A DNA stretch of 64,000 nucleotides from Fuerstiella marisgermanici (GTDB taxonomy: Bacteria; Planctomycetota; Planctomycetia; Planctomycetales; Planctomycetaceae), in assembly GCF_001983935.1 (NCBI RefSeq), contig NZ_CP017641.1, positions 2,790,001 through 2,854,000 of the forward strand. Reading direction: 5' to 3'. Of the stretch, positions 59,022 to 64,000 are shown one piece after another; within the stretch, counting starts at the first letter, position 1, and each line of letters begins with the position of its first letter. Under the pieces are notes generated by a model that worked only from the letters and a program-made list of their open reading frames with translations, was not told where the DNA came from and ran no database searches. The position numbers were made by a program, and so were the translations under genes.

Positions 59022-60623
59022 CTAGTTGCAGCATGCGTTACAGCCGTTGCTGCCGCATCCGCTGCTGACTGCACCGCCACAAGCTGGTCGCCAGACCTGT
59101 GAAGTCACAGTCTGAGGAACCATCTGCTGAACCTGAACCTGTACTTCACGCTGTTCAGGACGAGTTACACATACGGTGTATGTGTAAGGAACCTGTTCAG
59201 TAACCTGACGTGGAACCTGAACTGTGCGAGTTCGCTGTTCCTGACGAGTCTTCGTGACAGTGTAGGTGTAAGGAACCTGCTCCTGAACCTGACGAGCTAC
59301 ACATACTGTGCGAGTTCGCTGTTCCTGACGAGTCTTGCAAACCGTGTAGGTGTAAGGAACCTGTTCCTGAACCTGACGGCAAACATTGATCGTGCGAGTT
59401 CGCTGTTCCTGACGAGTCTTGCAAACCGTGTAGGTGTAAGGAACCTGTTCCTGAACCTGACGGCAAACGTTGATCGTGCGAGTTCGCTGTTCCTGACGAG
59501 TCTTGCAAACCGTGTAGGTGTAAGGAACCTGTTCCTGAACCTGACGGCAAACGTTGATCGTGCGAGTTCGCTGTTCCTGACGAGTCTTCGTAACCGTGTA
59601 GGTGTAAGGAACCTGTTCCTGAACCTGCTGGTAAGTCGTGTAAGGAACTTCAACCTGAACTGGGTTGGAAACCCAAACGCGACGAGTACCGCAAGAGTTG
59701 CCACAGCTGTTAGCAATAGCACCGCAGCATGCAGCAGCACCGCAGCCACCACAAGCAGAGGCACAGCCACCGCAAGAGTTGCCACAACCACCGCAAGCAC
59801 CAGCGTTACAACCGCCACAAGGCTGTTCTTCCCAGTGACCCTGATCCTGGCAAACTGTGCGAGTCTGCTGAACAGGTACTGAGCGACAAACAGTACGAGT
59901 GCCAGTCATCTGCTCCTGGTAAGGAACACAAACCGTGTAGGTCTGTTCCTGAGGCTCAGATACTGTACGGCAAACAGTACGAGTGCCAGTCATCTGCTCC
60001 TGGTAAGGAACGCAAACCGTGTAGGTCTGTTCCTGAGGCTCAGATACTGTACGGCAAACAGTACGAGTGCCAGTCATCTGCTCCTGGTAAGGAACACAAA
60101 CCGTGTAGGTCTGTTCCTGAGGCTCAGATACTGTACGGCAAACAGTACGAGTGCCAGTCATCTGCTCCTGGTAAGGAACGCAGACAGTGTAAGGCTGCTC
60201 AACCTGCTCCGTAACTGTCTTGCAAACAGTACGAGTGCCAGTCATTTGCTCCTGGTAAGGAACGCAGACGGTGTAAGGAACCTCTTTGGTGTCCATAACT
60301 GTACGGCACACGGTTCGAGTTCCCTGACGCTGTTCCTGAACAGGAACATTAACAGTGATGGTACGGGTTTCCGTAACCATCTGTGGGCACATTACTGTTC
60401 GTTCAACAGTTTCCCACGTTCCACAGCTCCCGCCAACAGCACCGCCACCGGCGACACCGCAAGAACTTCCGCAGCTTGAACCACAGCTTCCAGACCCACA
60501 GGGGCTGCAGCTTGAAGCGCAAGGGGCGGAGCAACAAGAGCTGACATTGCTGCCACAGCAGCTACCAGCTTGAGCAGACGCAGACATTAATGCCGCGGCC
60601 GCGAGTGTCAGAACATATCGCAT
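59022..60623 (-). CDS. Planctomycete YTV-repeat, Cys-rich cell-wall protein
   Basis: A 533-residue secreted protein. A signal peptide (YVLTLAAAALMSASAQAG) is followed by a Cys/Ser/Gly-rich segment (about 20-75). Two arrays of 28-residue repeats follow. One (about 95-250) is based on VCVPYQEQMTGTRTVCRTV, and the other (about 320-500) on YTYTVCKTRQEQRTRTINVCRQVQEQVP. A Cys/Gly-rich spacer (GGCNAGACGGCG-like) lies between them. The YTV repeat is a planctomycete-only domain of proteins found in the insoluble proteinaceous wall of Rhodopirellula baltica, so cross-linking by disulfides is likely. GGAGGAG lies 10 bases upstream of the ATG. A terminator at 58921-58955 ends the gene. Confidence 0.9.
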   Translation of the reverse strand: MRYVLTLAAAALMSASAQAGSCCGSNVSSCCSAPCASSCSPCGSGSCGSSCGSSCGVAGGGAVGGSCGTWETVERTVMCPQMVTETRTITVNVPVQEQRQGTRTVCRTVMDTKEVPYTVCVPYQEQMTGTRTVCKTVTEQVEQPYTVCVPYQEQMTGTRTVCRTVSEPQEQTYTVCVPYQEQMTGTRTVCRTVSEPQEQTYTVCVPYQEQMTGTRTVCRTVSEPQEQTYTVCVPYQEQMTGTRTVCRSVPVQQTRTVCQDQGHWEEQPCGGCNAGACGGCGNSCGGCASACGGCGAAACCGAIANSCGNSCGTRRVWVSNPVQVEVPYTTYQQVQEQVPYTYTVTKTRQEQRTRTINVCRQVQEQVPYTYTVCKTRQEQRTRTINVCRQVQEQVPYTYTVCKTRQEQRTRTINVCRQVQEQVPYTYTVCKTRQEQRTRTVCVARQVQEQVPYTYTVTKTRQEQRTRTVQVPRQVTEQVPYTYTVCVTRPEQREVQVQVQQMVPQTVTSQVWRPACGGAVSSGCGSNGCNACCN

Positions 60624-61264: not shown

Positions 61265-61759
61265 ATGAAGTTTTGCCTCGTCGACCGCATCGTTGAATTG
61301 ACCCCCGGTCAGTCGATTTCCACCACCAAAAATGTGAGTCTCGCGGAAGAATACCTGCAGGACCATTTTCCGGGGTTTGCGATCCTGCCCGGAGTGCTCA
61401 TGGTTGAGGCTCTGGTGCAAAGTTGTGCGTGGTTGTCTCGCGTGACCGATGATTTTCAGTTCAGTACCATTCTGCTAAAGCAGGCCAGAGCCGTTAAATT
61501 CAACAATTTTCTGAAGCCGGGACAGACATTGCATGTCACGGCAACGATGAAGAAGAATGAAGACGAAACCGTAAGTTTTCAAGCGGCCGGCACAGTTGAA
61601 GATCTGTCCGCCGTCAGTGCCAAACTCGTTCTTTCCAAGCAAAACCTGCGGACAACTCGCCCCGACATGGCCGATGCAGATCAGCGAGTGACGACTGCGA
61701 TGCAGGAGCTTTACAACCAGATCTGTCACGAATCCGTGATTTCAAAAAGTGCCGGGTAA
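61265..61759 (+). CDS. FabZ-like 3-hydroxyacyl-ACP dehydratase
   Basis: A 164-residue hot-dog protein. It has the FabZ-type hallmark HFPGFAILPGVLMVEALVQ, giving the catalytic His and Glu. N-terminal MKFCLVDRIVELTPG resembles the family's planctomycete version. The C-terminal extension (about 125-164) is longer than in standard FabZ. It would dehydrate a 3-hydroxyacyl-ACP to the trans-2-enoyl form. fabG, a long ACP gene and a second dehydratase-like gene follow in the same direction, so this is a fatty-acid-like cluster. Confidence 0.85.
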   Translation: MKFCLVDRIVELTPGQSISTTKNVSLAEEYLQDHFPGFAILPGVLMVEALVQSCAWLSRVTDDFQFSTILLKQARAVKFNNFLKPGQTLHVTATMKKNEDETVSFQAAGTVEDLSAVSAKLVLSKQNLRTTRPDMADADQRVTTAMQELYNQICHESVISKSAG

Positions 61760-62028
61760 ACGCATTCCAATGGCTGTTTTCCGGTCCGCGGCCCCACTGT
61801 TGCCGCAAGCTGGTAATTTATCTCGCAGCAGCTCATCTGTCCAACGATCACGTACATGTTCTGACAAGGCACCCGGGGCGACCTGCAGCAACCCGTTCTG
61901 GCTGGCTCCCCACAGGCCCCGGTGGCATCAATGCTCGCTGCGGAAGGGCTGGTCACTGAGCTGAATGCGTTCATCGATAATACTTCACTAACCACGAAAT
62001 TTTTGAGTAGCCAGGAAAGTCAGGAAAT

Positions 62029-62784
62029 ATGAGTCTTGAAGGTCGAGTCGCTTTGGTCACCGGTGGAAGCCGGGGAATTGGTCGGGGAATTGTTGAGGCA
62101 CTAGCTGGCGACGGAGCCAAAGTCGCATTCGTTTACAATTCGAACTCCGCTGCAGCAGACGAAGTCGTCGCCAGCATGAAAGAAGCGGGCCACGAAGTCA
62201 TGGCCATTCAGGCGGATGTCCGTTCAAAAGACGCGGCGGACAAAGTCATCGCTGACGTGGTCGAAGCGTGGGGTTCCATCGATATTCTCGTGAATAATGC
62301 GGGCATCATCCGCGACGGGCTTCTGGCGATGATGGATGCCGACCAATGGCAGGACGTTATCGATACGAACCTAACCAGCGTTTTCAACTTCTGCCAGGCA
62401 GCCACTCGACAAATGATGTCTCAGCGTTATGGACGCATCATCAACATGTCCAGCGTGGCAGCCGATGTCTCCAATCCCGGCCAGGCGAATTACGCAGCCA
62501 GTAAAGGGGGCGTTGAAGGCTTCACTCGCTGTATCGCGACCGAATTGGCTCGCCGCGGCATCACGGCCAACGCTGTTGCCCCTGGCTTTATCGAAACTGA
62601 CATGACACAAGCCGTGGTCGAAGCGGCGGGCAAGGAAATTAAGAAGAAAATTCCGTGCCGAAGACTCGGCCTGCCATCGGACATCGCCAATGCAGTTCTG
62701 TTTTTCGCACAGGAATCCTCCTCTTACGTGACCGGACAGATCATGAAAGTCGACGGCGGCCTGACGTTGGGTGGGATTAGCTAG
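62029..62784 (+). CDS. fabG: 3-oxoacyl-ACP reductase
   Basis: A 251-residue FabG. It has TGGSRGIGRGI, NNAGIIRDG, the catalytic Ser of MSSVAAD, the YAASKGG Tyr-Lys pair, and the IETDMTQ and SSSYVTGQIMKVDGG ends. It reduces 3-oxoacyl-ACP with NADPH. It lies 269 bp after the FabZ-like gene, and AGGAAA precedes the ATG. The cluster with an ACP and dehydratases supports a dedicated acyl chain synthesis. Confidence 0.92.
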   Translation: MSLEGRVALVTGGSRGIGRGIVEALAGDGAKVAFVYNSNSAAADEVVASMKEAGHEVMAIQADVRSKDAADKVIADVVEAWGSIDILVNNAGIIRDGLLAMMDADQWQDVIDTNLTSVFNFCQAATRQMMSQRYGRIINMSSVAADVSNPGQANYAASKGGVEGFTRCIATELARRGITANAVAPGFIETDMTQAVVEAAGKEIKKKIPCRRLGLPSDIANAVLFFAQESSSYVTGQIMKVDGGLTLGGIS

Positions 62785-63188
62785 GCGTTGGGAGCAAAAC
62801 AGATGCCTGACGCCGCGATGTTCTCGCTGAAAACGCGAAATTTGCGGTCAGGTTGAGTCTGGATTTCGTCCAGCTTCCCCAAATGTCAGAGCGATATGCA
62901 TCGGTTTGGCACGGTGGATAGCAGGTAAAGGCGGGGATTGTGGCCTTGAGTTTCCTCAGCCGTTCAATCGCCCCTTAAATTCGAGTAATTCGTGGTTTGT
63001 GGAGCTGAAGGTCGATTTTTTTAACCGTCAGCCGTAGACTTCCCGATCGCATGAGTGGCTTTGGGGGCCACGTTGCGTTTTATATAACTATCGAACAAGG
63101 CATCGTCGCCTGCCTGGTTCGATTGGCTGGGTTCGGCGATGATTCCTCGTTTGCACACAAAGTGCGACAAAAAGGAGATGATCTGATA
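62785..63188. other. Gap between fabG and the ACP gene
   Basis: A 404-bp gap. It holds an AAGGAG ribosome site just before the ACP start (63171-63176). No further gene was found. Confidence 0.45.
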
Positions 63189-63575
63189 ATGGCATCTGAT
63201 GAAGAAATTTTCGAGAAGGTTCAGGAGACCCTTGTCGATGCGCTGGGTGTAGATGATGACGAAGTCGAAAGTTCAGCGACGCTGATCGGGGATCTGGGGG
63301 CAGAATCCATTGACTTTCTGGACATCGTTTTCCGCCTGGAAAAGAACTTTGATATCAAGATTCCACGCGGCGAACTCTTTCCGGAAAATCTGGCTTCGGC
63401 CGATTCTGGATTCGTTGCCGATGGAAAAGTGACCGAAGGTGGGATCGCTCAACTGCGTGAAAAGATGCCGCATGCCGATGTCGATTCCTTCGCCGCAGAC
63501 CCTCAGGTCAACAAGATCCCGGATCTGTTTACCGTGGACATGATCTGCAAGTTCGTGAAGTCGCGGTTGAATTAG
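63189..63575 (+). CDS. acpP: Acyl carrier protein, long variant
   Basis: A 128-residue ACP starting at the ATG at 63189, with AAGGAG 12 bases upstream; the frame is open to 63051 but that leader is implausible. The phosphopantetheine Ser is in LGAESIDFLDIVFRLE, and the helix I region (FEKVQETLVDALGV) is normal. A segment of roughly 45 residues (PENLASADSGFVADGK... NKIPDL) is inserted before the last helix, while standard ACPs have about 78 residues. Such long ACPs are typical of this planctomycete cluster. The partner enzymes are unproven. Confidence 0.9.
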   Translation: MASDEEIFEKVQETLVDALGVDDDEVESSATLIGDLGAESIDFLDIVFRLEKNFDIKIPRGELFPENLASADSGFVADGKVTEGGIAQLREKMPHADVDSFAADPQVNKIPDLFTVDMICKFVKSRLN

Positions 63576-63961
63576 CAGCTTAACTGGGAACTCCGGCGAT
63601 CGTGATCAGCATGGTCCTTATGCGTATCACGCCGGAGAGCAGCAGCACGTAGCCTCGGGCGCGAGCCCGAGGTTGGCGATGCACCGATCCAGAAAAGCGG
63701 ATAGAAAGGCCCGTGACAGCAGAAATTCAGATGCTGTCATCGCACCGTAACTTGCGGCCGGCTTTCGATCGATGCCCCGCAGAAATTGAGTCTACTTTTT
63801 AACGGCGAATTGCACAGCGATTGACCGTTAGCTCAGGCTGAGGAATGAGTACTTCAACGGGCGTGCATTGCGGTATTCCAAAGCTCTAAACAGCCCGTCG
63901 TCATCAAATCACGCGCTAAAAATCCGCCAACCTTTTTCTTACTTTCGGACACACGTTTAAC
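63576..63961. other. Gap with two hairpins after the ACP gene
   Basis: A 386-bp gap. A hairpin with arms CTCCGGC...GTGAT / ATCAC-GCCGGAG lies at 63591-63637, and a perfect REP-like hairpin CCTCGGGC-GCGA-GCCCGAGG at 63653-63672 (GNRA loop). The first may terminate the ACP transcript, though no T-run is present. Confidence 0.65.
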
Positions 63962-64000
63962 ATGCGTTGGTATTGGGTCGACAGGTTCATCGAATTCAAT
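63962..64000 (+). CDS. Second FabZ-like dehydratase, first 13 codons only
   Basis: An ATG at 63962 opens MRWYWVDRFIEFN, which matches the N-terminal start of planctomycete 3-hydroxyacyl-ACP dehydratases and resembles the MKFCLVDRIVEL start of the gene at 61265. The window ends here, so the call rests on this short stretch and on the position after the ACP gene. Confidence 0.6.
   Translation, partial: MRWYWVDRFIEFN

Follow-up and report, generated by a model that had tools for sequence, protein, structure and literature searches.

The window analysed here is a 64,000-nucleotide stretch of the Fuerstiella marisgermanici NH11 chromosome (positions 2790001-2854000 of 8,920,478 bases), and its last few kilobases hold a compact group of fatty-acid synthesis (FAS) genes that runs on past the window's edge (Table 1). 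A first-pass annotation, made from the sequence of the window, had read three consecutive genes for a FabZ-like protein, FabG and a 128-residue acyl carrier protein (ACP) at this position, and the coordinates, the shared plus strand and the family matches all agree with that reading. It had also taken the final 39 bases of the window for the opening of a second FabZ-like gene, which is exactly where FabZ2 starts, and had expected a ketosynthase (KS) further on. FabF indeed comes directly after FabZ2, and the two genes overlap by 1 base. The first four genes are spaced by about 270-400 bases, gaps across which a single FabZ1-FabG-ACP-FabZ2 transcript is conceivable but nothing firmer. The mechanical open reading frame (ORF) of the ACP begins further upstream and is 174 aa long, and the ATG at 63189, from which 128 aa are encoded, is preceded by AAGGAG. 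No Rfam family reached its gathering score across 5.6 kb of the locus.

Table 1. Genes of the long-ACP cluster and its downstream neighbour in NH11 (window coordinates unless marked as genome positions).
Feature	Position	Strand	Description
FabZ1	61265-61759	+	164-aa hot-dog dehydratase; PF07977 E 6e-15; His34 and Glu48, catalytic-type
FabG (3-oxoacyl-ACP reductase)	62029-62784	+	251 aa; TIGR01830 304.9 bits against a cut-off of 297.75
Long ACP	63189-63575	+	128 aa; PF00550 E 1.7e-9; phosphopantetheine Ser40 in DLGAESIDFLDI
FabZ2 (start)	63962-64000	+	161 aa; ends at genome position 2854447; His34 and Glu48
FabF	genome positions 2854447-2855733		beyond the window, directly after FabZ2
lexA	after FabF	opposite strand	

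A Cys-rich repeat protein with a YTV domain is encoded divergently from FabZ1 (59022-60623, minus strand). YTV proteins are cell-wall proteins, and in 10 of the loci representing the best 80 of 558 relatives a related protein is encoded upstream of FabZ1. On the other side of the cluster, lexA follows FabF in the NH11 locus (L002 6737-7486), and an alpha/beta hydrolase occupies that place in the loci of two Fuerstiella metagenome-assembled genomes (MAGs; L050 and L051); no lexA match was obtained in loci L050-L054. The downstream genes had been singled out as a place to look for a ketosynthase, a thioesterase and an acyltransferase. The ketosynthase is there, but neither of the other two was found among the ORFs of the 13 kb after FabF, which were judged by reading and not by family scans.

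The ACP carries approximately 45 additional residues ahead of its last helix. In an alignment of the window ACP with those from 24 of 29 other loci of the phylum sample, all 25 proteins align over their full length and 24 columns are invariant, all of DLGAESIDFLDI among them. The Pfam PP-binding core was recognised in each of the 25, and the sole other match was a weak Tautomerase hit in one sequence. AlphaFold2 run on this alignment returned a mean pLDDT of 91.3 for the long ACP, with two extra helices (residues 83-92 and 98-102) located after helix II and ahead of the last helices; the lowest-confidence blocks (pLDDT 76-81) fall within residues 61-80. The insertion is conserved and, in the predicted structure, confidently modelled. 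The long ACP does not reach the AcpP model TIGR00517 (50 bits against 70.45, with the match limited to residues 5-60); housekeeping ACPs are about 77 aa long, and the AcpP of NH11 scores 101 bits on the same model. Searching the PDB by sequence returned, among the best 60 of 88 matches, for the most part ordinary ACPs, about 70-100 aa in length, and some longer ones (e.g. mitochondrial), all with alignments that end by about position 78, so that none of these spans the insertion. The best 50 of 392 matches from a fold search were also mostly ordinary ACPs, and the ACPs among them are too short to hold the insertion.

The cluster is not a specialty of this strain: almost every genome sampled from the class has the long ACP at E<=1e-15 (146 of 148, and 135 of the 136 good ones). 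At the same threshold, 41 of the 246 genomes sampled across the phylum have it, one with an E value of 3e-17 and the other 40 with 3e-30 or better, and 205 lack it; distant matches, some of them nearly full length, trail on from 3e-14 down. A scan of named genomes gave 558 confirmed relatives, and the best 80 include 75 from planctomycete groups and five that are uninformative in this respect. One genome rated 100% complete (G034, genus g11) has no long-ACP match and its congeners G002, G095 and G172 do, which is possibly a case of loss.

Gene order was counted in the loci of these best 80 relatives, 55 of which had enough flanking sequence. The arrangement in relatives can be written FabZ1-(FabG)-ACP-FabZ2-[Cys-less KS]-FabF-[alpha/beta hydrolase]. 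Both dehydratases are present in all 55 well-flanked loci and a canonical FabF in 49, the remaining six having none at the cluster; FabG was counted in 37 loci, as was the alpha/beta hydrolase. A full-length KS lacking the catalytic Cys occurs in 24 of the 55, and in 23 of these it separates FabZ2 from FabF (L079 is omitted from the count, its candidate being one piece of a split FabF, and the L080 copy sits further downstream). The arrangement is not due to chance, since other organisms repeat this gene order around their copies of the ACP. Catalytic residues are also well kept: with the NH11 copies included, FabZ1 has its His in 77/77 sequences and its Glu in 71/77 (Gln in six), and FabZ2 has its His in 76/79 and its Glu in 79/79. 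The NH11 cluster FabF has Cys-His-Lys-His, which cluster FabF proteins retain in 60/60. Two candidate additions to the set were rejected. The NH11 homologue of the alpha/beta hydrolase, 52% identical to the copy in the Fuerstiella MAG locus L051, is unlinked (8707809). Enzymes of GH3 type are encoded in the retrieved flanking sequence at 13 of the 55 loci, some several kb off, and were dismissed as obligate partners, occurring in 18 of the 41 phylum genomes that have the long ACP and in 57 of the 205 that lack it (Fisher p 0.06, 246 genomes); NH11 has two such genes, both unlinked to the cluster.

The Cys-less KS adjoins FabF in loci of Isosphaeraceae, Phycisphaerae and others and is absent from that position in most Planctomycetaceae loci. 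It is about 440 aa long, and in the 30 cluster-region copies the catalytic position is occupied by Glu (17), Asp (12) or Ser (1), and by Cys in none. The two kinds of KS were separated at 320 bits to the NH11 FabF, a cut that we set ourselves and with which the trees then agreed. NH11 encodes two unlinked Cys-less KS, at 5141296 (Asp) and 4574894 (Glu), both combining a KS fold with the loss of the catalytic Cys, as KS-beta or chain-length-factor (CLF) proteins do. Both fall within the clade of the cluster-region partners (support 100/99), which stands apart from the clade of cluster FabF proteins (100/98); E. coli FabF and the second FabF of NH11 form a separate group (97/95). The first tree contained all 30 Cys-less sequences, 15 of the 60 cluster FabF proteins and seven NH11 KS, while the second contained 10 of 29 Cys-less sequences (L109 was dropped), 8 of the 60 FabF proteins, E. 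coli FabF and four NH11 KS, leaving out three that are long-branched. The KS at 5141296 is matched in 61/61 genomes of the family at E<=1e-60, which is permissive enough to let in other KS as well, and the residue is Asp or Glu in all 30 of the best family loci, NH11's own included. Forms of this kind were already known from R. baltica, whose FabF paralogues RB3714 and RB4527 have Cys163 replaced by Asp or Glu and were discussed in 2009 in connection with ladderane synthesis (PMC2649909, Rattray et al.). The replacement is the same as in the partners described here, and the available portion of that paper draws no link to a long-ACP cluster. One or both of the unlinked NH11 genes probably pair with the cluster FabF.

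The first-pass annotation had further proposed a dedicated acyl pathway apart from housekeeping FAS, which called for a comparison with the general FAS genes of the same genome. AcpP (6330005, 76 aa), FabZ (576123; 114.2 bits on NF000582 against a cut-off of 113, and 111.9 on TIGR01750, under 155.15), FabH (590034, passing an NCBIfam cut-off) and a second FabF-like KS (4748930, passing NF005589 and grouping with E. coli FabF) are all encoded elsewhere, and the cluster is therefore largely a second FAS-II set in NH11. In R. baltica, fabD (RB314), an 81-aa acpP (RB318) and fabB (RB320) have been reported (PMC2754498). The opposite outcome, unrelated genes downstream in a genome with no other FAS set, is not what the chromosome holds. 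The two cluster dehydratases stay below the same FabZ models (FabZ1 93.5 on NF000582 and 86.5 on TIGR01750; FabZ2 97.1 and 96.0). It is at FabG that the proposed separation may give way. Two FabG-like NH11 genes were scanned and the cluster gene alone passes TIGR01830, although it misses narrower FabG models (e.g. NF004197, 289.5 against 332). The other is 4401890, 41% identical to it, the top one of 28 other SDR hits and the one of the 28 that was put through the family scan; its product clears the cut-off of NF009466, a broad model of the FabG subfamily (252.2 against 222), and stays short of that of TIGR01830 (272.8 against 297.75). Judged by reading, its neighbours include CoA-transferase- and thiolase-like genes. 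Since 4401890 is the weaker FabG candidate, the cluster FabG may serve both sets.

The second FAS-II set of NH11, with a carrier that is nearly class-wide, is thus real. We further propose, with a probability of roughly 55%, that it is a planctomycete type II elongation set for a long acyl chain of the envelope. The growing chain would be carried on the 128-aa ACP, condensed with malonyl units by FabF, reduced by FabG, and dehydrated by FabZ1 and FabZ2, which might act together or divide the chain lengths between them; an enoyl reductase and a malonyl transferase would be drawn from the general pool. By analogy with KS-CLF pairs, the Cys-less partner may shape the FabF pocket. We infer from the gene content and order that the parts of the cluster act together, and the product is probably a long acyl chain bound for the cell envelope.

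Several other readings of the same genes must be weighed against this one. The cluster might be part of the housekeeping FAS, with FabG and FabF doing general elongation and the long ACP serving as an interchangeable second carrier. Among the NH11 genes scanned, TIGR01830 and TIGR03150 are reached by the cluster genes only (on the latter, FabF scores 504 against 493.75, and the next of the seven NH11 KS scanned 477.9), and the other FAS genes examined are scattered across the genome. The E. coli fabHDG-acpP-fabF cluster is homologous (FabF 43%, FabG 46%, ACP core 41.5% over 53 aa), but the NH11 cluster differs from it in its two dehydratases, its enlarged ACP and the lack of an adjacent fabH or fabD, and its relatives differ further in the Cys-less KS partner. 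Paired dehydratases, an ACP insertion and a Cys-less KS are, to our knowledge, foreign to general FAS. Together with the AcpP, FabZ and FabH genes that pass a cut-off elsewhere, the second FabF that groups with the E. coli enzyme and the additional FabG candidate, they make a housekeeping role unlikely.

A KS with a Cys-less partner, a ketoreductase, two dehydratases and a dedicated ACP also resemble the kit of a highly reducing type II polyketide system, as for aryl polyenes or ishigamide, in which the KS pair elongates and the chain keeps conjugated double bonds after FabG and FabZ have acted, so that no enoyl reductase is needed; none was recognised in the cluster. Aryl polyene clusters (ApeO-ApeC, ApeQ and a dehydratase pair) share these components, being described with a KS-CLF pair and a dehydratase designated by two names (PMC8358021). 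They have two ACPs and a partner, ApeC, of about half the size of a KS, however, whereas we find one ACP and a full-length partner of about 440 aa. No aryl-starter gene was recognised near the cluster by reading, and an ACP that is near-universal in its class would be more in keeping with a structural lipid than with a pigment. On balance, a polyene product seems rather improbable. Least probable of all is that planctomycetes have here their own version of the AcpXL very-long-chain system, which would load a C28-type chain on lipid A. The rhizobial cluster likewise comprises a specialised ACP, a FabZ and two KS genes, in the order acpXL-fabZXL-fabF2XL-fabF1XL, which the ACP-FabZ-KS-KS order of the present loci resembles, and a helix II of the DFLDI type in AcpXL also speaks for this reading. 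Both the ACP and the KS nevertheless fall below the corresponding models. On NF005079, which we take to be the AcpXL model, the cut-off is 83 bits; the long ACP scores 41.6, which does not exceed the 42.5 of the NH11 AcpP. Of the KS models presumably tied to the AcpXL system, NF005076 and NF005084, neither was reached (cluster FabF 372.7 against 629; six KS 82.0, 70.8, 59.6, 52.6, 50.3 and 47.3 against 320), and no lpxXL- or adh-like gene was recognised beside the cluster by reading.

Returning to the elongation set for an envelope acyl chain, the best single candidate for its product, offered tentatively, is the C18-C20 3-hydroxy acid of lipid A. The hydroxy acids reported for the lipopolysaccharide of P. 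limnophila are 3-OH C14:0 (74.1%), C20:0 (22.5%) and C18:0 (3.4%) (PMC3035269, quoting Kerger 1988), and almost all of lpxABCDKL are essential in this species (PMC10632474), which, from the class count, is likely to have the cluster. Two length classes of hydroxy acid would fit two carriers. Among the cluster genes themselves, none was recognised as a lipid A gene. The whole-cell fatty acids of NH11 are mainly C16-C18; a summed feature including C14:0 3-OH amounts to 0.55%, and no C20 3-OH acid is listed in the available part of the description (PMC5177795). A broader proposal, and a somewhat more doubtful one, is that FabF and the full-length acidic-residue partner, acting on a private enlarged ACP, form a core lipid pathway of the whole class, the ACP insertion being a docking code that separates it from AcpP. 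If true, a KS-beta arrangement known from polyketides would build a structural envelope lipid. In the literature searched we found no description of the long-ACP cluster and no gene set assigned to the length of planctomycete lipopolysaccharide hydroxy acids. A compact set with its own near-class-universal carrier is a direct target for linking genes to lipid, and it offers a way to test if two-subunit ketosynthases of the polyketide type have a role in primary lipid metabolism.

Two other ACP neighbourhoods in NH11 deserve mention. The KS directly after AcpP (L134 5994-7401) keeps the Cys, carries Asp in place of the first His and Gln in place of the Lys, and sits on a long branch. A third ACP, of about 88 aa (L135 7486-10581), is flanked by a KS and an oxidoreductase read as phytoene-desaturase-like, and a combination of ACP, KS and phytoene-desaturase-like genes has been discussed for ladderanes (PMC2649909).
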